Source: Mycoavidus sp. HKI
GTDB lineage: Bacteria > Pseudomonadota > Gammaproteobacteria > Burkholderiales > Burkholderiaceae
DNA length: 64,000 bases
Direction of reading: 5' to 3'
Assembly (NCBI RefSeq): GCF_020023735.2
Contig: NZ_CP076444.2
Location: 310,001-374,000 of the forward strand
The translations under genes and the position numbers were made by a program. This document shows, piece by piece, positions 17,420 to 36,185 of this stretch; the stretch's first letter is position 1, and every line of letters starts with the position of its first letter. Below the pieces are notes generated by a model. The model did not search any database. It was not told the DNA's origin and was given only the letters and a program-made list of their open reading frames with translations.

Positions 17420-18202
17420 CTAAGGTGAAGGCTGCAGGTCAGATCGTTGTGACTGTGTCGCGTACTGAGTACGAATTTCCTGTTTGCGCAACGATTCCCC
17501 TTTGAGCTTAAGCTTATGGCTTTGATGCACAATTCGATCGAGGATGGCATCAGCGAGAGTTGGATCGTTCAAATATTCATGCCAATGCTCAATCGGTAAT
17601 TGACTGGTAATCAGGGTTGAGCGCGAGGAGACCCGGTCATCAATGATTTCTAACAGATCGGCGCGTTGGTCCTGGGTGAGTTGATGTAGGCCCCAATCGT
17701 CCAATATGAGCAAATCAGTTTTAGCGATAGCCTGCAGTTTGCGAGTAAAACTGCCGTCGCCGTGGGCAATACGCAGCTCTTCAAATAGCCTGGGTATGCG
17801 CACATACAGCACCGAGAAGCCACAGCGACAAGCCTGCTGCCCCAATGCACAAGCCAGCCAGGTCTTGCCGACGCCAGTTGGGCCGGTGAGTAGGATGCTT
17901 TGTGTGCGCCGGATCCAATCACAGGATGCGAAGCTGGCGATTTGCCGCTTATCCAGGCCGCGCCCAGTACGGTAGTCGATATCCTCCAAGCAAGCTGAGG
18001 ACACTTTCAGGCGCGCTTGCTTCAGTAAGCGCGCGATGCGACGGTTGTCACGGTGCGAGCATTCGCGGTCAACCAACATGCCGAAACGCTCTTCAAACGA
18101 TAGATCATCGGTAGCACGCTGAGCAAACTGCTCGCTCAATGCGATGGCCATGCCATCGAGCTTGAGAGCCTTAAGTTGGTTGAGGGTGTGCTGATTCAAC
18201 AT
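17420..18202 (-). CDS. istB: IS21-family helper ATPase IstB
   Basis: AAA+ ATPase that assembles on target DNA and directs the IstA transposase. 260 aa, normal length. Walker [10 protein letters not shown] at about residues 106-114, Walker B LLILDDWG (residues ~165-172), followed by sensor-type [14 protein letters not shown] preceded by AAGGAAAT on the minus strand; begins 27 bases after the istA stop. No damage visible. The window has only this copy. Confidence 0.95.
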
Positions 18203-18229
18203 AGATTTCCTTTTAGGTGAGTGATGGCA

Positions 18230-19813
18230 TTAGTGGTAGTACCCCGGTCCACGCACGTTGTCGTGCATGGTGAAGCGAAGTTCGGTTTGGGCCGCGGGTG
18301 TAGCCGGTGGGGATGGCTCGATACGGTCCAGGCCTGATTTCAGGATATTGGAGACGCTTTTATAGGTCATTGCATCTAAGGCGGCGGCGCGTGTACACGC
18401 CGCTTCCAAGCGCTCTTTGCCGAAGGTGCGCAACAAATGCATCAAGCCTAAACAGGAGCGATAGCCCATCTCAGGATGAGGCTTAGAGTCCAGCAGATGT
18501 CGCACGATTTGGTGTGTGGCCTCTCCGATCGATTCGCCCCAATTTAATAATCGTCCTGGCGACCATTGCCGGTGAGCTTGGTGTGATTTGGGCATGTGCT
18601 CGACCAAAGTCGTGTGGTGGCTCTTCACGCCAGGTATCAGGCAACTTGCTACGTTGGGGTGGGAGGCCACCCTCTTGCCTTGATGGAAGCATTCAATCAT
18701 GCCAGTCGTGATGCGCACCTCGACGTCACGCCCCACCAATTGGTGGGGCACGCTGTAATAATGACGATCGACGTCGATGTGGTAATCAATCGACACTCGC
18801 GCCTTTTTCCAGTGCGCCAACTCGAATGGCTGTGGCGGCAGCGGCCGCAGCACTGGACGATCGATTACCTCGAACGCTTGGATGCGATTGCCAGGCAATT
18901 CCTTGAATGGCCGGGCGTTGAGGTCTATCAGCAGAGTTGCGATAGCGTGGTTCAATTCGGACAAGCTGAAGAAACGCCGGTTACGCAAGCGCGCGAGAAT
19001 CCAGCGTTCAGCAATTTGCACACCGACTTCCACTTTGCCTTTGTCCTGCGGCTTATAAGGCCGTGCAGGCAATACTGCGCAACCGTAATGGGCAGCGAAC
19101 TCAGCATACAGACGCCCCACCTGAGGTTCATACCGATCCGGGTTAGCAATCAAGGCTCGGGCATTGTCGCAAACGATCAGCTCAGGACAGCCTGCGATAT
19201 AGGTGAGTGCCTGGATGTGTGCGCTAATCCAGTCTGCGGCAGTTTGAGTCCCAGTGGCCACTGCAAATGTATAGTTAGAGGCTCCCAGCACTGCTACAAA
19301 CAGTTGGGCTTGACGGATTTCACCGGTATGCGGGTTAGACACCGCAATCGTCTGACCCGCATAATCGACAAATAACTTCTCGCCAGCCCGATGAACCTGA
19401 CGCATCGAGCGCTTGAGTGTCTTGGCCCAAGCGCGATAATGTACGCACACGCTTGTGTAGCTATAGGGCCGACCAGGACATTGCGCGCAATACTCCTCCC
19501 ACAGCAACTGCAGCGTCACGCCTTTGCGTTTAAGCTCTTGATGGAGCCAGGCATAATCCGGCGGCATGAACTGAGACGCGCGCACCACAGGTGTCTCAGA
19601 TTTGGGCTTCAGTCTGGATGACAGTGCCGTTTCGTCTAGCGTTTGCGCCTCTTCCCAGGCTAGACCCGCTTGGCTAGCAAGCTTAATGTACTTGGCGACA
19701 ACACCTTTAGAGAGCGACAGGGCCCGGGCAATCGCCTCTAGTGACAAGCGGCATTCATACCGCAGCCTTAATACTTCTTTAACTTTGCGCATGGTAATTC
19801 GTCGACTTGGCAT
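18230..19813 (-). CDS. istA: IS21-family transposase IstA
   Basis: DDE transposase. I use the ATG at 19813 (MPSRRITMRKVKEVLRL), 527 aa; an upstream TTG at 19852 extends it by 13 residues. N-terminal helix-turn-helix (LSLEAIARALSLSKGVVAKYI), RNase-H-fold core with catalytic candidates D in KLFVDYAG, D in LIVCDNARA and E in DKGKVEVGVQ, then a C-terminal domain with SIDYHIDVDRHYYSVPH. Complete, so probably functional with IstB. Confidence 0.94.
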   Translation of the reverse strand: MPSRRITMRKVKEVLRLRYECRLSLEAIARALSLSKGVVAKYIKLASQAGLAWEEAQTLDETALSSRLKPKSETPVVRASQFMPPDYAWLHQELKRKGVTLQLLWEEYCAQCPGRPYSYTSVCVHYRAWAKTLKRSMRQVHRAGEKLFVDYAGQTIAVSNPHTGEIRQAQLFVAVLGASNYTFAVATGTQTAADWISAHIQALTYIAGCPELIVCDNARALIANPDRYEPQVGRLYAEFAAHYGCAVLPARPYKPQDKGKVEVGVQIAERWILARLRNRRFFSLSELNHAIATLLIDLNARPFKELPGNRIQAFEVIDRPVLRPLPPQPFELAHWKKARVSIDYHIDVDRHYYSVPHQLVGRDVEVRITTGMIECFHQGKRVASHPNVASCLIPGVKSHHTTLVEHMPKSHQAHRQWSPGRLLNWGESIGEATHQIVRHLLDSKPHPEMGYRSCLGLMHLLRTFGKERLEAACTRAAALDAMTYKSVSNILKSGLDRIEPSPPATPAAQTELRFTMHDNVRGPGYYH

Positions 19814-20024
19814 CGCATACCTAAAAAGCGCACACGATACCGGGTTGTTCAAATTACCTTCGCTTGCCTACAGCCTTATCAAATCGCCGATCATTTCTAG
19901 CTTTCCGATTTCAAAAATTTTATCTAAAATCGGTCACGACAATTCTGAAATTAACGGTCACGATAAATCTGAAATGACCGGTCACGCTCCTGAAATGGAC
20001 GGTCACGATGCGCTGAAATACGCA

Positions 20025-20709: not shown

Positions 20710-21756
<1,047 letters not shown>

Positions 21757-22735: not shown

Positions 22736-23380
22736 ATGAGCCGGCCATACAAGTTCTGGCGAGTGATGTGGGTGGGATTAGTGGCGTACACAGCGGCGGC
22801 CTACCCGCACAATATGTCAGTAAAAATAGATACTGCTCGTGGTCAAGCAATTGCAAGCCAGGTATGTATCTCCTGCCATGGCGTAGAGGGCGGCGGGGCA
22901 ACGGGTCTCGCGCCTAATCTTGCTGGTCAGCATATTGAATATCTGTATAAACAGTTACTTGATTACAAAACTAAGCCCGGTGACAAAGCGCCAAAACGCA
23001 ACAATCCTATTATGGCAAGCTTTTCCTCAGTACTGTCTGAACAAGACATGTGGGATGTCTCAGCTTATTTTGCTGGCTTGCCAGAAAAGCTCGCTTTTGC
23101 GCACAGCCAGGAGATGGCAGCGCATGGCCAGCAAATCTGGCGTGGCGGCATCGCCGAGAGAGGCGTGCCAGCCTGTGCCGCATGCCATGGCCCAACGGGC
23201 GCTGGCATGCCAGTACAATATCCGCGCTTAGCCGGCCAATGGCAAGATTACACGATCACGCAATTGCAGGCCTTTCAACAAGGTGAGCGTGCTAACAATG
23301 ACCCTATGCAGGCGATTGCAGAGCGTTTATCAGACAAAGAAATTAAGGCGCTGGCAGATTATATTGCGGGTCTGCGCTAA
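22736..23380 (+). CDS. Periplasmic diheme cytochrome c4
   Basis: Electron carrier between the bc1 complex and terminal oxidases. Start at ATG 22736 after an AAGGGGG ribosome site; 214 aa. Signal-like N-terminus (WRVMWVGLVAYTAAAYP), then two heme-binding CxxCH sites: CISCH (residue ~44) and CAACH (~146), each within its own half, with axial Met candidates (NPIMASF, DPMQAIA). A Burkholderia-type neighbour of resB/ccsA, which build such cytochromes. Converges on the fic gene, overlapping it by four bases. Confidence 0.92.
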   Translation: MSRPYKFWRVMWVGLVAYTAAAYPHNMSVKIDTARGQAIASQVCISCHGVEGGGATGLAPNLAGQHIEYLYKQLLDYKTKPGDKAPKRNNPIMASFSSVLSEQDMWDVSAYFAGLPEKLAFAHSQEMAAHGQQIWRGGIAERGVPACAACHGPTGAGMPVQYPRLAGQWQDYTITQLQAFQQGERANNDPMQAIAERLSDKEIKALADYIAGLR

Positions 23381-24906
23381 GCTTCTGGAGGCATAGCTTT
23401 GAAAACATCGTCATAAATTTCCTCAAACCTTAAAATCTCAGCATCTTCTAGGTAAGAGAAATATTTATCACGTTTAGCTTTGGACAACTTTCCTTGATTT
23501 TGATGGACAAAAATAATAAATTTATCAAGCGCTGTTCCTGGCCAATCGAATTCTTCATTTAATTTTGCATAGAGGGTGTCGCGTTTAAGTAAAAATTGGA
23601 GTTCCTGCTCAAGATCTTTTTCGATCACTTGCTTTAAACACAATAATAAAAACTCGACCTGTGGGGTTGCATCGAAATACCGATACAGTAATGCATCGTT
23701 TCCTCGTGCTGGAATGTCGGGTGTGATCGGATAGTAATCGGTTAAGCGTTTTAATGGTTTTGAGAAGGCTTCTAGCGCACAAATATACTCATCTAGCCGA
23801 GCTTTCATCACGGCTGATACGGGTAAGATAAACCCACGTGGAGTAAAGCCTCGGCGTGTCAGTACCTCATGCACGAGGAAGCGGTGAATACGGCCGTTGC
23901 CATCCATAAATGGATGCAAAAAAACAAAAGAGAAAGCAGCTAATGCAGCCGCGATGGGGGCCGCTATCCCGTCTTCTTCAGCTAGGTGATTGGTCCAAGC
24001 GATCCAGTCCTTCATTAGTGAAGGAATATCTTCGGGGCGAGGTGGCAGGAAATCGACGCGATGGAGCCCATTATTCAGTTCTCGGCCAACATAATTTTGG
24101 CTGTTACGATAGCCTACCTCACGAAAACGTGCATCAACCACAATATTTTGGAGTAAGCACAAACGTTCTTGTGTCACGGGCTGGGGGTCGCTTGCTTCAC
24201 GCAGTGCTTGCATGAAACGCTCGGTTTTGTTGCCGCTTGGTTTTTCTCGTTCAAGGTCAAATGAATATTGGGTTTCTTTCAAATAGAGCCAGGCAGCTGC
24301 TCGCTCGAGGCTACGTGGGTTGTAGCGCATGAGGGCACGATTGACCGCACCTGCCAGATCTTGCTCTAAGAATTTTTGGATAGTAGGTGTGCGCCGTACG
24401 ATTGGGCAAAATTGGAAGCTCCCTATCAGGTTATTTTCAATGCGGAACCGTTCGCTACGGACGGGTTTGTTGTAATTTACATAGAGTTTGTTGTCAGCTA
24501 GTTGAATGTAAGTCCTTTTTTTATTTGTATCCGGTACGTTAAGCTGTGTGTTGGTCAATCCTTCATACAAGAAGCCGAGCCGTCTTAAGCTATGCGCTTG
24601 AGTTGATTTTTGTAAGGCCGTTTCCAATTGTGTTTTGCCGTCTTGGATAAAGAGGCTGCTTAAGATTTCGAGATTTATACCTTCATATCGCAAAGCAAAC
24701 TCAAGATGGCCTAAAATAGTGTTTTCTGGCGCGTAACTTTGACGAAAATTTTGCTGTAAATGGTCGGCATGATTGACGGTTTCGCGTGATTGAACGTTGC
24801 TTTTGATGAAAGACGGGCGCCAATGGGGGCGTGTTTTCAATTGATATGCTTCAACTAGCCACGTATATCCTACAGGCTGTTGGGTTGATAAGTCATAATA
24901 GGTCAT
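23377..24906 (-). CDS. Fic-domain protein (putative AMP-transferase)
   Basis: 509 aa. The Fic core HPFMDGNGRIHRF (about residues 332-344) matches HPFx(D/E)GNGRxxR with the catalytic His, so AMPylation or a related NMP transfer is plausible. Upstream, LKETQYSFDLEREKP resembles the inhibitory helix (S/T)xxxE(G/N) of class II Fic proteins, but with Arg after the Glu. The N-terminal ~200 residues and the C-terminal ~130 are of the Fic/DUF4172-like accessory type without further recognised domains. Its stop overlaps the cytochrome c4 stop. Not part of the Burkholderia core order at this place, so it is an acquired gene. Targets unknown. Confidence 0.88.
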   Translation of the reverse strand: MTYYDLSTQQPVGYTWLVEAYQLKTRPHWRPSFIKSNVQSRETVNHADHLQQNFRQSYAPENTILGHLEFALRYEGINLEILSSLFIQDGKTQLETALQKSTQAHSLRRLGFLYEGLTNTQLNVPDTNKKRTYIQLADNKLYVNYNKPVRSERFRIENNLIGSFQFCPIVRRTPTIQKFLEQDLAGAVNRALMRYNPRSLERAAAWLYLKETQYSFDLEREKPSGNKTERFMQALREASDPQPVTQERLCLLQNIVVDARFREVGYRNSQNYVGRELNNGLHRVDFLPPRPEDIPSLMKDWIAWTNHLAEEDGIAAPIAAALAAFSFVFLHPFMDGNGRIHRFLVHEVLTRRGFTPRGFILPVSAVMKARLDEYICALEAFSKPLKRLTDYYPITPDIPARGNDALLYRYFDATPQVEFLLLCLKQVIEKDLEQELQFLLKRDTLYAKLNEEFDWPGTALDKFIIFVHQNQGKLSKAKRDKYFSYLEDAEILRFEEIYDDVFKAMPPEA

Positions 24907-28558: not shown

Positions 28559-28874
28559 TTATCTGTATCTTAACGTGGTGTCGATTCGGTGGTAAATTAA
28601 TTCCTCGCTCATTTCTATTCTCCTCTGCTTCAGAATAGCCTGGGGCTGACGTTTCCAACCACTTTCCGGTGGGCAGATACGATAATATGTTGATCTTCCT
28701 TGTCAATCGAGTTGTGACGCCGCTCAAGGAGGCGGCCTAGAAGCTTCAGCCCTCAGAATGAAACACTCTCCTGATTGGAGTTGAGTGCAATGCCGTTGTT
28801 TGCAAGCGATTGCGTGAGCCGCAATTCCGTGGAATCGGCTCAAAATATGAGTCGAATATGATAGATTTCGGCTT
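28559..28874. other. Intergenic tract, no recognisable gene
   Basis: 316 bases. No ORF with homology that I recognise. A short minus-strand frame (about 28720-28630, DKEDQHIIVSAHRKVVGNVS) looks like coding debris with a stop. Burkholderia has msrP/msrQ between ccsA and lysA; they are missing, and this tract marks the left edge of the accessory island. Confidence 0.5.
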
Positions 28875-30224
28875 ATGAACACGAAATCCACCTGGATCTG
28901 GCGTCGGGCTGAATAGCCTGATCTCGCCTACGACGCGCAGATGACCGCACCTGACTTGGCGGAGGCCTACCGGATGCACGGTGTGGTCGAAGGCAAGGCT
29001 ACGGCTATCGGCCTTGGCAGTACCAGTCAAGTCGCACTGGATGCGCTATCGGGTGAGGTGCTGGCCACCGCCGCCATAGAAGGAGAGCGTTTGTCGCTCG
29101 ATGTGGTCCGGTCATCCGTGATGCGGCGACTCGGGCTCTTAACGTCGGGATCCTCCAACCGCCATGTTGATGGCCTTATTGAGGTTATTAGCGATGCCAC
29201 GACAGAGTTTGACATGCCTCTCGATGAGGAGCGCTTGTGCCGGTGGCAATCTGCGCTGTTTCCTGGTGGCACGTCCGGCATTCACCGCATCGTTGTCGGC
29301 CGATATCGAAATCATGACGACCCGATGCAGATCGTGAGCGGTCCGTTCGGCCGTGAAGTGGTGCATTTACGAGGCGCCGCCATCCAAGGACGTGCCGGCG
29401 CACATGCGGCGTTTCCTCACGTGGTTTTCTGAAACATCGCCTGCGCAGGCCCGGGCGGTGCCGGCGGGCGGCAAGAAGATCGATGGCTTAGCCCGTGCCG
29501 CCATCGCGCACCTGTGGTTCGAGAGCATCCACCCGTTTGAGGACGGTAACGGCCGCATTGGGAGGGCCATCGCTGACATAGCCATGGCGCAGCATTTGCG
29601 ACAACCGGTGCGCCTCTATAGCCTCTCGCGCCAGCTACTAACCTCGCGCTCGGCGTACTATGATGCCCTTAACCAAGCTCAGCGTGGCGACACCGATGTC
29701 ACGGCGTGGATACAGTGGTTTGCGCGCCAATGTACGGCCGCCTACCATGCCGCGAGCCACGCTCTTGACCAGGCAATCGAGAAGGACGTTTTTGGGAGAA
29801 GCACGAGGGTGGTGGACTTCATGAGCGGCAGCGCAAGCTGCTACAGCGCCTGCTCGATGACGAGGACGGTGGCTTCTTGGGCGGCTTGAACGTCGACAAG
29901 TATATGAAGATGACCGGCGTCTCAAAGGCCACGGCGACACGCGACCTTTCGGAGATGGTCGTGGGTGGGCAACTGTGGAGCCACGGCGTCGGCAAAGCGG
30001 TGCGCTACTACATCAATGTGCCTGGGTGGTCGCATGGCCTTGACTTTGGGGCCCAGTGCTGGTGGTTCTGGTCCTGCTGCGGTCGCTGTCGACGAGGAGC
30101 GCGAGTCGAAGGAGTCCGAGATGAATGTGCGCCCAGCCCAAGGGAGAGATGTAGGCTAGAAGCTCGGGCGGCGCGTCAAGGCCTTTGTTTCGTCGTTCTG
30201 CGACAGCATGTTAAGCGCTGGTAA
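28875..30224 (+). pseudogene. DUF4172-Fic-wHTH gene, broken by a stop and two frameshifts
   Basis: Conceptual protein: MNTKSTWIWRRAE, then TAG at 28914-28916 where the family has Trp (WIWxRADWP, TGG to TAG), then the DUF4172 part PDLAYDAQMTAPDLAEAYRM. An extra T at 29366-29368 shifts the frame inside VVHYEAPPSKDVPAHM. The Fic motif follows, intact in that frame: HPFEDGNGRIGR (about 29528-29563). A lost T in the run 29789-29793 returns to the first frame, where a winged-helix tail (YMKMTGVSKATATRDLSEMV) ends the protein. Recognisable homology stops near 30040. The sequence is visibly more G+C-rich than its neighbours, suggesting recent arrival or a late-decaying ancestral gene. Confidence 0.88.
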
Positions 30225-30244
30225 AAGGCTTTTAAATCTTGGTT

Positions 30245-30560
30245 CTAGCGAGTACAAGCTAGAGTTAACATGTAAAACGTTCACCGGATGAGTGCTCGAC
30301 TGCCTTGAATGAAACGTTTGCCTTTGTGTTTACCGCTATCGTGGTTGAAAGGCGCAACCTTACCAGAGCAGCCAGCGACTGATGGTTTGAGCAACCTAAC
30401 CCTGGCAAAAAGGTAATGAGATGCCAGGCCGTTAAATCTCCTACGCCTGGAACGCAAGCCAACAAGGCATACTTCGAGCGCATGTCAGGCGTACTCTTGT
30501 ACTGTTCAATGGCTTACTCTATGTCAACATTCAGTAATGTACGGCTGCTACCCGACAAAC
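30245..30560 (-). pseudogene. IS110-family transposase remnant
   Basis: Minus strand: YALLACVPGVGDLTAWHLIT, LPGLGCSNHQSLAALV match the C-terminal Transposase_20 (IS116/IS110) domain (xxSVPGVGPVTAxxLLAELPELG). A frameshift near 30357 moves the rest to another frame (KVAPFNHDSGKHKGKRFIQ, GSRALIR, stop, TFYM). Only the tail of the gene is left, with several stops. Dead element, sign of past insertions in this island. Confidence 0.75.
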
Positions 30561-30677
30561 AAAGAGGGGATGGTATTTCATATTATAAAATTTACTAAGT
30601 TTGCACGAACGGAGGAGAGGCTTTGTGTGCAGATTTCGCCACAGTTCGCTAATGAGGCGTTTACTTTGAGAAAGCTC

Positions 30678-30686
30678 TGCTAGAAT
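30678..30686 (+). promoter_or_regulatory. Extended -10 box upstream of the giant gene
   Basis: TGCTAGAAT fits TGnTATAAT, 140 bases before the ATG; no good -35. The 265 bases between the IS110 remnant and the giant gene hold nothing else that I recognise. Confidence 0.4.
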
Positions 30687-30825
30687 CAATTAAAAATAAA
30701 TATCAGTGCCACAGTACCCGTTTAAAGCCAGTACTTTTCAGAAATAGAGCTTTTGCAATGCAGCAGTGCAGGTTTGGCAAGTTTCAGCATCTGATTAATA
30801 TCAAAGAGCGCTAAAGGAGGATTAT

Positions 30826-33800
30826 ATGAACCCGGTATCCAACAACGTCAACGCTTCGGTCTCAAGCCCAAGTCAACTTCACACTATATCGTCTCAGATC
30901 GATGCAACTATAAATAACTTGTCTATCCATCCAGACAATGGGCCGGTTCAAGACAATCGTTTACAAAACGACTTGAGAGGCAGGAATATTCATTTATTAA
31001 ATAATTATCAATCTGAAACTGAAACGTTAAATAAAACCTTTGAGCTTTTAGCAGAGAGTGAAAGAAAGCTTAGTCTCGATGATCGATATAAAGAGATCGT
31101 TCTGGTTCTGGGCAACACGGGAGCAGGTAAGAGCACCTTCACCCAGTATATTACGGGGAATGATAGTAATCTCTGCTCAAAAAAATTAAAGGGAGGTAAA
31201 TTTTCTATTGAGGATAAGAGCGATACAGCGAAGAATTCCACAATTCATTCTCAAACAATTTTTCCAGAATTAATAGTAGATAATAGTACTACAGATATTA
31301 GGAGTGCTACAGCCTACTATGACTGCCCCGGATTTGAAGACACCCGGGGAGTTTCGCAGGAAATTGCATCTGCCTATTGCATAAAAAGGCTGATTGATCA
31401 CAGTGAACGTATCAAGCTAATGCTTGTGGTGAACCATTCCTCCTTGGAAGAGGGGAATTATCGGAATGATTTTATAACGCTCGCGCAGCATATAGGCAAT
31501 TTGGTCAAAGATTTAGGTAGATTTAAAGGCAGTATTACCCTGATTGCTACTAAAGTAGATAATATTATTGTAGAACGAGAAAAAGGCTACGGCTTAATTC
31601 CGGATCAAGAGGTGATAGAGGGTATAACTGAGTTTCTTTGTAATGTTGTTAAAGAAGAGGCGAAATCAGAGCTTAAAAAATCTAATCTTACCGATGACGA
31701 CAGGAGGCGGTATACAGCAGCCATTCAGCTCATTGATGCTCTCGTAGTGAACGCTGCTAGTCCTAAGATAGGACTTTTTCGACGACCGGATAAGGCAGGA
31801 TCACTAAGTGAGATTGCACTTTTTCGGAAAGCTAAACCTCAGCTTCAGCAATTCATAGAGAGTACTCAATTTTTACCCAGTGCTTCAGAGTATTTTGGGT
31901 ATACGATTTCAGACAAATACAAACACCATGTCCAGATCCTCGCTCAAACAATCAATGATACGATCGCCTCAGACGCAGCTAAACTAGGAGAAATGCTGCA
32001 ACGCTATTTCCAGGATCAAGTGAAGCAGTCGAAGGATTGTCGCCAATTAATAGCGCAATTAAGCGAATCTTACAACTCCCTTAAAGCACTTAAAGAAAGC
32101 CTTACGGAAATCAACTCGCCTAAAGAGTTTGTCAACACTTTTCGTAACCAGATGGCCAACTGTAAGCTGCCTATCGATGGCATCCAAGAAGAAAAACGAA
32201 TAAACACTCTGCTAAAGCAAGCAGATTATTTAGAATTTCTACAAACAGTCAGTAACACGGAACTTACTACGACCCCAGATCGGTGGTCTAATCAATTATT
32301 AGGGAAAGTAAACTCCGATTTAGAGCATTTCATGCAGTGGTATGAATTTTTGTTTGCACTGCAAAATAAACTAAGTGCATGGGCGGTGCAGCATAATCCA
32401 AGTCGATACAATGTCGCGGATATTCAGGATTGGGGGCAGGTCGATAAAGGGCAAGGTATTCATATTGATTCCGATAACATTCGGCCTTTCTTAGCAAAAG
32501 TCCAATCCGACTTTTCCATCAATGTTAAGGAGACCATCCACCGTATCTTAGAGAGTAGCGAGAGATTAGAGGAACTCAATCGTTTATTAAAATTAGAGCT
32601 TAGCTTAATTGAGGTAAAAGAAGAGGGTGAAAAACTTACCGTGAAAGGCAGGTATGTAAAACTGAGTGAGGTTGAACGTGCCCTTAGCGCTGCTAATACG
32701 AAACCCACATGGCTTGAAATTTTCGGATTAGATACGGTGTTTATAGATACGAATCTCACGAATGAGCGATTAAAGGGGACGAATGTGATTATAGCAGCCC
32801 CTGCCTGGGAAGTGATTGGTGGACACTGCATTTGTTTAGATGGCGCAGCTGCCTCCCAAATAGTTCCAGATAAGGTAGAAACTGGCCTCTATGATGGTGC
32901 CGCCGGTCAACCTGGGAAGCCTGGTGGGACGGGAGGCAGTTTATTGGGGGTTGGTAACTATTTTAGAAATGCTGAGGATCTGACGATTACCGCGCATGGT
33001 GGTAAAGGTGGACCGGGACAAGACGGTGGCGATGGTGGTAATGGTCAAAAAGGGAAAGATGCTGTGTTTCCTGAGACTACGGGTCGTGCCACGCCAGAAG
33101 GGGCTATGCAGATAGACCGTACGGTAACGGACGGTCCGTATCACGCATCGACAGTATATACTTATTATTATTGTATTCATAATGGTAAAGCAGGTGGGCC
33201 AGGTAGGCCAGGTGGGGCGGGTGGACAGAGAGGCCAAGGTGGTAAGCCAGGTACACTTAAGCTTATTAACTTGATGGATAATTCAACCATGCAAGAAAAA
33301 ATTCATCAAGAGTCGGCTGCTGGAGAAGCTGGAAAGGGGGGAAGGGGGAAAGGAGGGGAAGGCGGTCATTATATAGATCACGCGACTGCAAAACTCGAAA
33401 TTGAGCATTACGGACGCGGCACAGGAGCAGTCCCTGACAAAATAGAGTGGACACTCGATCCGAAAAAAGCTCCTAAACACATACGCAATGGTCGGAATGG
33501 CGTAGATAATAGTAATGGTGCAGGTCGTGATGGTAAGCCAGCAGAGCCCCTTCCTATGGAAGATTTTTATCCACACCTCAATGCTTATAAACATTATTTA
33601 CGTGCAAACCTCGTAGATCCTTTGTATAAAACTCCCTTGACTACGTTTCTAGATCAAATAGAAAAAGCTCACCGGCTGAACGAACTTTCTACCCCGCTAG
33701 GATTAGTCAATGAGTTCCAGGGATTAGAAGAGCAATTCTATACCATGAGTCAGCAAGTAGATCTGCGGCCGAGGTATCAATCTTTTCTAGACCGTGTACG

Positions 33801-36090
33801 GGACCACGCTAAAGACTCACTGGCTCGAGCACCGTCTCTGTTGCTTGATGATAAAAAAGCGCTGAGTTATCTGTATACCGCTGCGCTGAGCAAACTCAAC
33901 AGTCTTAATGTTAAGTTAGACCCGCATTTGGTCATTGATATGAAAGGGTATTTAGATTTGGTCGAAGCGACGGTCAAAGAACTGAACACGCAAAGAAAAA
34001 GGGAAGCGATTTCAAACTATCAAGAGAAGTATACATCCTCTATTGAGCAGCAGATAAAAGACGCGCAGGGCTTCGTTAAAGCAGAAATTGAGCCCGCCAT
34101 CGAGAAGATGGGTACAGAACTCGACCAGCAGCTAGAGGCATTAATAACAGAAACGGTAGAGCAGCAAGCAGCGGAGCAAGAGAATCAAGAGAATCAGCAG
34201 GCTTTACAAGCTCAACAGCGGAAATTGGAAGAGGCCTTAACGCTAAGGGCTCTATTTGGAGTGCTGAAGCTAGGCAGCACCGTTATCGGCTGTGTGGGGG
34301 GGCCCGTCGGTGTGGCTGTGGGCGCGGTGATTGGCACAGGCACGATGGTTGCTGAAAGTTTGGTATTAGACGATAAAACTGTTGGAGCCACGCTACTTTC
34401 ATTCCCGTCTGAGGTCAGCAAAGGGCTGAACGCCTTTCAAGCCGAACTGAAGAAGCGAGAAAAGAATCAACTCAAGGTTATCGAGCAACAACTCGCCCAG
34501 ATTAATCGGGACTTCGAGGGATTCTCCACTGAGGTAGGAGATATCACCCAAATAGTGACTAATATCCAAGCTAAGGTCACGACGGAACCAGGTGAACCTG
34601 ATCCAAACGGACTTGCTGAGCTATATGGCTTGCAAAAACAATTAGAAACGGAACTCAGTAGAAAGAAAACCGATTTAGAATCGCGGGAATCTGCGCCGCA
34701 AACTAAAACCCTCTTAGCGCATGTTGAGCGCGCTACTAAGACTGTACAGATAATAGCAATGATTTCGGCATCGGTTGCGGGTATCTACGAGCAATATCAA
34801 CAGGGTCAGGAAAAACAGAAGGTTATTGAAACGGCTATCCAAAAATCTAAGGATCAACTGACGAAGCTTAAACAGTATGAGGACAATATCTATAAGGATA
34901 TTATTCCCGGGGTAGCAAGGATGCGGCAAGATATTCAAGCGATTGAACGTGGTTTAGCGAGCCAGTCGAAAGTATCACTGGATGTCACGCAGTGGCGCGT
35001 ACAAATTATCTTGAAAGACATGCAGTTTCAACTCAAGCAAATCACACAGGGCTTTAAGGTACAAGGAGCCTTGGCGCGGTGTTTTGAAAAACTGGATGAA
35101 GGGATGACAACGTTGATTCATTTGTATAGTCGTATCCAGGCTTGTCAGGACCAGCAAAAATTGGCAGATTATATTGCTCAGATCAACTCACCGGTCTCTA
35201 CTGGGATTACCATAGTGAAGGAAGATTTGCGTCTGGCAGTGGAGAGCTTGGAATTAGCGATCAACGCTAATTTGCTCCTTGTTCAGTATGAGTGTGCTCG
35301 AAAAAGCTTTGAGCAATGGGCCTTTCCTTTTACTCAAACATATTTGCCAGGGCTGGATTTGCCTACCGAGTTTAATATGGATTCGCTCCAAGGACGCGTC
35401 CAAGAAACGATAAGGAATATACGAACAAGATTAATAGAATATAGAACTTCCATCAATGAATATGACAATCAAATAATGACAGAAGACTTTGATAGTGAAG
35501 GGGAATTTACAGCCCCCTTTGCGGTATGGAAGCCTGCAGACTATTGGTTAGAAATTAAAAATTTACTCAGTGGAGAACCCGTCACCTTCAAAGCGGATGT
35601 TGCCTTTAGCGCGCCTTGGAAAGATGCGATTAAGTTTAGCGAAATCGCTATCCGAATGAAGTGGGTGTCATCTGACGATGTCTATGTAGAAGAAGAGCAG
35701 CGTAAACAAAATCAAAAGTCGTTAGATAAGGTTCTTAATCTTTTTAGTGTGGATATGACCCATTGGGGCAATTCCTACTATCGATATGACAATCAGTATT
35801 CTTCCATACCGGGTGAGAAGCTACTAATCAACTATAGTTTTGAAAGGAGAGGAAGCCCTCTTCAACCAGTCAGCAGCAATGGAACCTATAAAAAGCTGAG
35901 TCGAGGGGATTTTATGCTCAGTCCTTATACTTTTTGGACTATGCAGTTGATAAGCCAAAAAGAAGGAGGGCAAAGACAAGCGGAATATAATCAGCTTAAA
36001 TCGTACGTAGGTAAAGTAGACTTGGAGCTAGTAGGGAAGGGATGGTATATCAAGACTCGAGTTGATTCGAATGTCTTCGGAGTGGGCTGA
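30826..36090 (+). CDS. Giant multidomain GTPase with collagen-like region (unknown function)
   Basis: 1754 aa, starting after a perfect TAAAGGAGG ribosome site. Order: Ser/Asn-rich N-terminus without signal peptide; AIG1/septin-like GTPase with P-loop GNTGAGKST (residues 96-104), G3 DCPG (166-169), NHSS (203-206) and G4 TKVD (242-245); helical region to ~620; a beta-like segment (~627-690); Gly-rich GxxG collagen-like tracts (~690-712, 725-745, 786-809, 834-850); long coiled coils (~1035-1150, 1190-1400); a Gly-rich hydrophobic hairpin between them (residues ~1152-1181, CVGGPVGVAVGAVIGTG); and a beta-rich C-terminal domain (~1553-1754). Composition is more A+T-rich than flanks and it replaces core genes in an island. 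I do not recognise the whole family. A membrane-acting effector or toxin is possible (inference). Confidence 0.85.
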   Translation: MNPVSNNVNASVSSPSQLHTISSQIDATINNLSIHPDNGPVQDNRLQNDLRGRNIHLLNNYQSETETLNKTFELLAESERKLSLDDRYKEIVLVLGNTGAGKSTFTQYITGNDSNLCSKKLKGGKFSIEDKSDTAKNSTIHSQTIFPELIVDNSTTDIRSATAYYDCPGFEDTRGVSQEIASAYCIKRLIDHSERIKLMLVVNHSSLEEGNYRNDFITLAQHIGNLVKDLGRFKGSITLIATKVDNIIVEREKGYGLIPDQEVIEGITEFLCNVVKEEAKSELKKSNLTDDDRRRYTAAIQLIDALVVNAASPKIGLFRRPDKAGSLSEIALFRKAKPQLQQFIESTQFLPSASEYFGYTISDKYKHHVQILAQTINDTIASDAAKLGEMLQRYFQDQVKQSKDCRQLIAQLSESYNSLKALKESLTEINSPKEFVNTFRNQMANCKLPIDGIQEEKRINTLLKQADYLEFLQTVSNTELTTTPDRWSNQLLGKVNSDLEHFMQWYEFLFALQNKLSAWAVQHNPSRYNVADIQDWGQVDKGQGIHIDSDNIRPFLAKVQSDFSINVKETIHRILESSERLEELNRLLKLELSLIEVKEEGEKLTVKGRYVKLSEVERALSAANTKPTWLEIFGLDTVFIDTNLTNERLKGTNVIIAAPAWEVIGGHCICLDGAAASQIVPDKVETGLYDGAAGQPGKPGGTGGSLLGVGNYFRNAEDLTITAHGGKGGPGQDGGDGGNGQKGKDAVFPETTGRATPEGAMQIDRTVTDGPYHASTVYTYYYCIHNGKAGGPGRPGGAGGQRGQGGKPGTLKLINLMDNSTMQEKIHQESAAGEAGKGGRGKGGEGGHYIDHATAKLEIEHYGRGTGAVPDKIEWTLDPKKAPKHIRNGRNGVDNSNGAGRDGKPAEPLPMEDFYPHLNAYKHYLRANLVDPLYKTPLTTFLDQIEKAHRLNELSTPLGLVNEFQGLEEQFYTMSQQVDLRPRYQSFLDRVRDHAKDSLARAPSLLLDDKKALSYLYTAALSKLNSLNVKLDPHLVIDMKGYLDLVEATVKELNTQRKREAISNYQEKYTSSIEQQIKDAQGFVKAEIEPAIEKMGTELDQQLEALITETVEQQAAEQENQENQQALQAQQRKLEEALTLRALFGVLKLGSTVIGCVGGPVGVAVGAVIGTGTMVAESLVLDDKTVGATLLSFPSEVSKGLNAFQAELKKREKNQLKVIEQQLAQINRDFEGFSTEVGDITQIVTNIQAKVTTEPGEPDPNGLAELYGLQKQLETELSRKKTDLESRESAPQTKTLLAHVERATKTVQIIAMISASVAGIYEQYQQGQEKQKVIETAIQKSKDQLTKLKQYEDNIYKDIIPGVARMRQDIQAIERGLASQSKVSLDVTQWRVQIILKDMQFQLKQITQGFKVQGALARCFEKLDEGMTTLIHLYSRIQACQDQQKLADYIAQINSPVSTGITIVKEDLRLAVESLELAINANLLLVQYECARKSFEQWAFPFTQTYLPGLDLPTEFNMDSLQGRVQETIRNIRTRLIEYRTSINEYDNQIMTEDFDSEGEFTAPFAVWKPADYWLEIKNLLSGEPVTFKADVAFSAPWKDAIKFSEIAIRMKWVSSDDVYVEEEQRKQNQKSLDKVLNLFSVDMTHWGNSYYRYDNQYSSIPGEKLLINYSFERRGSPLQPVSSNGTYKKLSRGDFMLSPYTFWTMQLISQKEGGQRQAEYNQLKSYVGKVDLELVGKGWYIKTRVDSNVFGVG

Positions 36091-36099
36091 TCCCAGTTT

Positions 36100-36153
36100 G
36101 GAGTTGATTCCTTTTCGGTAGTTTAAAAGTGCCCGCGAAAATGAGTCAACTCC
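36100..36153. repeat. Inverted repeat after the giant gene
   Basis: GGAGTTGA (36100-36107) pairs with TCAACTCC (36146-36153), extendable to 11 pairs with one G-T. The 32-base spacer is too long for a standard intrinsic terminator and no T-run follows. A GGAGTTGA copy also occurs at 28777 at the other side of the island, so it may be an element end. Confidence 0.5.
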
Positions 36154-36185
36154 AGTTACAGACTGCCTGAGTTTCCCTTACAGTT

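Follow-up and report, generated by a model that had tools for sequence, protein, structure and literature searches.

The single-contig genome of Mycoavidus sp. HKI (2,254,889 bases; NZ_CP076444.2) was analysed over positions 310001-374000, a stretch of 64,000 nucleotides referred to here as the window. Mycoavidus is a fungal endosymbiont of the Burkholderiales. The window holds a gene for a protein of 1754 residues, here called the giant GTPase, in which a GTPase domain is followed by Gly-rich, helical and beta-rich parts (Table 1). The frame is real and intact. It is open throughout and lies where a first-pass annotation, made from the letters of the DNA, had placed it, the strong ribosome site reported by that annotation is present ahead of its ATG, and only one other frame of 120 or more amino acids occurs inside the gene (123 amino acids, opposite strand). 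It is not a chance frame, since at least 20 other proteins match it at E<=1.9e-60. As a whole, the first-pass annotation was confirmed in part as to its observation, and its interpretation, that of a candidate undescribed system that may act on membranes, received partial support.

Table 1. Features of the giant GTPase gene and its insertion site (window coordinates)
Feature	Position	Strand	Remarks
Stretch with no BLAST match to the corresponding site of either genus mate	28559..36185		7.6 kb in this genome; genus mates 0.91 and 0.96 kb
Region with broken Fic/DUF4172 gene, two frames	28757..30161	+	94% copy elsewhere in this genome (G000:C1:1739152-1740549)
Shine-Dalgarno-like AAAGGAGG	30813..30820	+	5 bases before ATG
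Giant GTPase gene	30826..36090	+	1754 aa and stop, open frame; relatives found by protein search
N-terminal leader, residues 1-66	30826..31023	+	Mostly disordered in model; putative type III secretion signal
GTPase domain, residues 75-370	31048..31935	+	G1 31111-31134, G3 DCPG 31321-31332, G4 TKVD 31549-31560
Helical arm, residues 375-559	31948..32502	+	Model and profile map
Mixed strand/helix segment ahead of Gly-rich part, residues 562-690	32509..32895	+	Model and profile map
Gly-rich part, residues 690-899	32893..33522	+	Common to Rickettsiales proteins; no collagen match
First helical region, residues 905-1139	33538..34242	+	Model and profile map
Hydrophobic stretch, residues 1140-1181	34243..34368	+	Modelled helix-break-helix at residue 1158 beside Gly-Gly-Pro; low model confidence
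Second helical region, residues 1182-1558	34369..35499	+	Includes one 89-residue helix
Beta-rich C-terminal domain, residues 1561-1748	35506..36069	+	Model and profile map
Short dispersed repeat directly 3' of giant GTPase gene	36106..36158		4 other genome copies, 87-92%; partly inverted repeat

When other endosymbionts and eukaryotes were searched, as the first-pass annotation had proposed, relatives were found in Rickettsiales and in arthropods. Each protein search scored about 8000 candidates, and the counts of relatives are lower bounds. Sixteen of the matches to the window protein are named orb-weaver spiders, and four carry no organism label. A second search, with a metagenome relative as query, gave one other among the matches listed, Candidatus Phycorickettsia trachydisci, and a third, with residues 1062-1900 of a Rickettsia protein, gave at least 48, including 29 spider rows (one flagged UNVERIFIED_CONTAM by its source), 12 rows without an organism label and, as minimum counts, Hyalella azteca (2), Nasonia vitripennis (2), Halyomorpha halys (1), Planococcus citri (1) and Rickettsia helvetica (1). 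The copies of Argiope (94-143 Mb), Planococcus (84 Mb) and Nasonia (24.8 Mb) lie on chromosome-size contigs, which argues against contamination in these three. Identity between the window protein and its named relatives is 22-37% by aligned piece; over aligned columns, 16 spider rows are 38.6-45.5% identical to the Rickettsia protein and 31.5-35.4% to the window protein. Eight parts were mapped with local profiles, namely GTPase, helical arm, mixed segment, Gly-rich part, three helical parts (within which the hydrophobic hairpin was counted, with no separate score) and beta tail. All eight are present in 38 of 55 rows; the profiles were built from 9 of these rows, among them the window protein, which therefore match by construction. 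The same parts recur in the same order in R. helvetica, orb-weaver spiders, Hyalella, Nasonia, Halyomorpha and Planococcus. Among the open-licence papers listed, none was found to name the family. The transfer section of the H. halys genome paper covers Wolbachia ankyrin, phage WO and Pantoea genes and no GTPase (PMC7071726), and the available portions of PMC11077975 and PMC6092422 hold nothing on it. A planthopper watery-saliva proteome table, in the portion available, carries the label LOC100680511, which is the name of a Nasonia family member; the coincidence is one of label only (PMC5935387).

Trees were built from 21 of 25, 42 of 55 and 19 of 55 rows, with partial and near-copy rows left out and, for the 19-row tree, label-less rows, LL7 and further spider rows as well; the first two were rooted at the midpoint and the third on Phycorickettsia, by choice. 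In the 42-row tree, which has Phycorickettsia and LL7 outermost as drawn, the window protein branches off early, R. helvetica groups with label-less rows beside the spiders, Hyalella comes next, and four insect rows cluster with one row without an organism label. The 21-row tree is similar. Forcing 15 animal rows into one clade against 4 bacterial rows made the tree 38.3 log units worse, and the approximately unbiased test rejects a single clade of animal sequences that leaves out R. helvetica (p-AU 0.0005). This rejection implies that the gene crossed more than once between intracellular bacteria and arthropods, whichever way each transfer ran. Several points weigh against this conclusion: the trees are quick ones with long branches, selected rows and an assumed root, the long-branch warnings cover the window protein, and the tested clade was picked after the 42-row tree.

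Within Rickettsia, a genome scan found a relative of 2219 residues on a contig from Ixodes persulcatus. An identical protein occurs in a one-contig 1.37-Mb genome, and the R. helvetica record is 100% identical to it over the region searched. The gene looks like mobile-element cargo; its neighbours encode a TraD-type conjugation protein, HD and HATPase proteins, two transposases, a D12 methylase and an ankyrin protein. In the Rickettsia order, where at most two candidates were scored per genome, at least 15 of 343 genomes have a match at E<=1e-8, two of these holding the identical protein. Across Rickettsiales, local profiles show the GTPase, Gly-rich and helix/beta parts combined in different ways, and the companion domains there are ankyrins, LRR, TPR and C48 (Ulp1)/RickCE proteases. 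Such proteases co-occur with GTPase and Gly-rich parts in Megaira (P0024, L041) and with helical/beta parts in LL7.bin32, whereas the Mycoavidus, R. helvetica-type and single spider proteins scanned have no protease row. On a Candidatus Megaira plasmid, one protein (L004:7200-12434, CP084577.1) has a C48-type protease domain at its N-terminal end, GTPase and Gly-rich parts in the middle and a RickCE-type protease domain at its C-terminal end. Another genome holds two relatives (L035:3235-10356 and L050:6869-12724) as frames of 2374 and 1952 amino acids with ankyrin repeats, the P-loop being present in one.

The P-loop, DCPG and TKVD motifs read in the first-pass annotation are exact in the window protein (G1 GNTGAGKS, G3 DCPG, G4 TKVD). 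Structure prediction, which had been suggested there as a check, models a GIMAP/Toc34-like GTPase, a helical half and a beta-rich C-terminus as claimed; residues 1-62 have pLDDT (predicted local distance difference test) values below 50 and are modelled as disordered. In the model of the C-terminal half, long helices bracket a hydrophobic stretch, as had been proposed, with the hairpin itself modelled at low confidence. The highest hydrophobicity peak of the protein falls within residues 1140-1181. The Gly tracts are also present (residues 690-905 are 24% Gly and 6% Pro) but are not collagen-like, the longest G-x-x run being 7 triplets and Pfam giving no row for collagen at E<=0.1, and collagen identity was rejected.

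In the profile searches that had been proposed, no Pfam or NCBIfam family exceeded its curated cut-off for the window protein, a PDB sequence search with this protein alone gave no match, slices of the protein had only weak Pfam rows at E<=10, and PHROGs gave no row. The order of parts, for which the first-pass annotation knew no bacterial system, recurs in R. helvetica and arthropods. Weak ABC_tran, AAA, MMR_HSR1 and SufC rows are explained by the P-loop. We discounted PDB profile matches to P-loops, linkers, apolipoprotein and coiled-coil helices, and the PADLOC rows ZorA (1.3e-5) and LeoBC (7.8e-5), which lie on the helical half. With GIMAP/AIG1 and Toc34-type GTPases the giant GTPase shares the predicted G-domain fold and the DCPG motif, but AIG1 (PF04548) is missing from its Pfam rows at E<=0.1, and it carries about 1380 extra residues without counterpart; one Megaira relative has an AIG1 row at 0.0068, below cut-off. 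Motifs and predicted fold agree with the AIG1-like assignment, and Pfam does not. Dynamin-like proteins and helical toxins of the 2nrj/NheA/SmhA type have long helices and a membrane-entering tip. The likeness to them drawn in the first-pass annotation extends to modelled long helices and middling fold scores (for the dynamins, BDLP/IniA), but there is no Dynamin_N (PF00350) row at E<=0.1, no sequence family matches, the protein differs in size and order of parts, and the resemblance may be one of shared arrangement only. Pfam includes a model of the latrotoxin C-terminal domain (CTD); neither it nor OTU gave a row at E<=0.1 in the window protein (P0001), P0023 or P0003, and latrotoxin-type membership was rejected. 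A fold search with residues 600-1754 returned the Mimivirus LCMiAC02 protein A0A481Z1I0 (E 1.1e-20, probability 1.00, 12% identity, template-modelling (TM) score 0.14-0.16). A viral carrier of the family is possible; none of 385 stretches of viral contigs that matched the search pattern was a relative, and the phage search found none.

The accessory island seen in the first-pass annotation is a 7.6-kb insertion between ccsB and lysA, a gap of less than 1 kb in both genus mates. BLAST similarity to these stops at the ccsB stop codon and restarts at the lysA stop codon. Upstream lie resB and ccsB, and downstream, on the opposite strand, lysA and a PBP1A-type gene. The GC content at third codon positions (GC3) of the giant GTPase gene is 0.41; the 14 neighbours measured range from 0.45 to 0.60, the IS21 transposase being highest, and the 13 that are not insertion sequence (IS) genes from 0.45 to 0.56, all above it. 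The core pattern of the repeat at the 3' edge has 7 matches in the window against 0.94 expected. At the same site one genus mate, the only one examined, has a 212-residue ankyrin-repeat frame (L055:2314-2952). Elsewhere in the window are a longer Fic-domain gene (23377-24906), an IS21-type istB and transposase pair (17420-19852) and an anti-hemB RNA (Rfam RF02837, 21792-21872) beside hemB (20710-21708).

We tentatively read the giant GTPase as a host-directed, GTP-driven membrane effector of intracellular bacteria, which is a real possibility though short of probable. The modelled parts would fit an assembling GTPase with a membrane-entering hairpin, and Rickettsiales pair parts of the family with domains that look host-directed. 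The protein would leave the bacterium, most simply through a type III secretion system (T3SS), parts of which the genome has: SctV scores 817 bits, over its cut-off, and the adjoining SctN- and SctL-like genes fall below their equivalog cut-offs, though the FliI/YscN subfamily model is exceeded. Searches for VipB and VirB4 found no match. In the available portion of PMC5877345, M. cysteinexigens B1-EB is reported to have a partial T3SS, a partial type IV system and a few parts of a type VI system, and strain AG77 to have types II-IV. On reaching the cytoplasm of the fungus, the GIMAP-like GTPase may bind GTP and self-assemble, the Gly-rich part and the helical arm serving as a spacer or scaffold; the long-helix half would then open and the hairpin enter the membrane, remodelling or permeabilising it, and the beta tail may bind a partner or position the protein. 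Our confidence is lowered by the hairpin, whose model is weak (ten-residue means of 41-59 across residues 1140-1209) and whose hydrophobicity is absent in 2 of 8 family members checked.

Action on host membranes or on the cell's own had both been offered in the first-pass annotation, and we favour the host side. A bacterial dynamin-like protein working inside the bacterium is distinctly unlikely, given that a search of 61 genomes found the gene in its own genome and in none of the 60 relatives, that arthropod genomes retain the same parts, and that related parts accompany protease-type and ankyrin domains. We regard as slightly less unlikely that bacteria captured an arthropod-type (GBP/IRG/GIMAP-like) GTPase from animals. 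R. helvetica is nested in a group of arthropod and label-less sequences, and animal immunity GTPases are among the fold neighbours; yet bacterial proteins are outermost if the tree is rooted on Phycorickettsia, single parts are scattered through Rickettsiales and on Megaira plasmids, and animal matches are patchy among the matches listed.

A toxin against fungus-feeding animals, like the insecticidal complexes of the genus, seems improbable. M. cysteinexigens B1-EB has insecticidal toxin complex genes (PMC5877345, in the portion available), and of the 8 rows with E<=0.001 in the Foldseek search of the C-terminal half, 5, the top-ranked one among them, are Tc toxin A subunits (E 1.3e-4 to 6.3e-4). 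Against this reading, the TM-scores to these chains are 0.10 or less, no Tc partner is among the annotated neighbours, and a GTPase would be odd in a toxin acting from outside. Least probable, in our estimate, is selfish or neutral cargo, recently inserted and without present role. The broken Fic gene alongside, the repeat at the 3' edge and a GC3 under that of 13 of 13 non-IS neighbours speak for it, whereas 1754 unbroken codons, exact G motifs and a strong ribosome site speak against it.

A 2012 survey, in the part available, describes GIMAP-type GTPases as a strategy restricted to endosymbiotic and parasitic forms and the latrotoxin-CTD as common to endosymbionts and spiders (PMC3482391). 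Like the endosymbiont giant toxins and effectors treated there, which carry GIMAP, OTU, ankyrin or latrotoxin-CTD parts, the giant GTPases are giant, modular, found in intracellular bacteria and shared with arthropods including spiders; unlike them, they lack latrotoxin-CTD and OTU rows in the three proteins scanned, and their order of parts is not described in that part of the survey. Against this portion of the survey, the family is of the same kind, with a different architecture and a wider arthropod spread. A bolder and rather doubtful proposal is that a trans-kingdom family shuttles repeatedly between intracellular bacteria (Rickettsiales and an endofungal member of the Burkholderiales) and arthropods, keeping most of a 1750-2200-residue architecture, with which bacteria would remodel host membranes and which arthropods would have domesticated and multiplied to serve, in the manner of GBP/IRG proteins, as a weapon in the cytosol or as a tolerance factor against those symbionts. 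For a protein of this size, sharing over nearly the full length between bacteria and animals is unusual. Repeated gene exchange between intracellular bacteria and arthropods has in this family a concrete case that can be tested, with GTPase motifs that both sides have mostly retained. The family also supplies, in a fungal symbiont, a candidate for a protein that acts on membranes.
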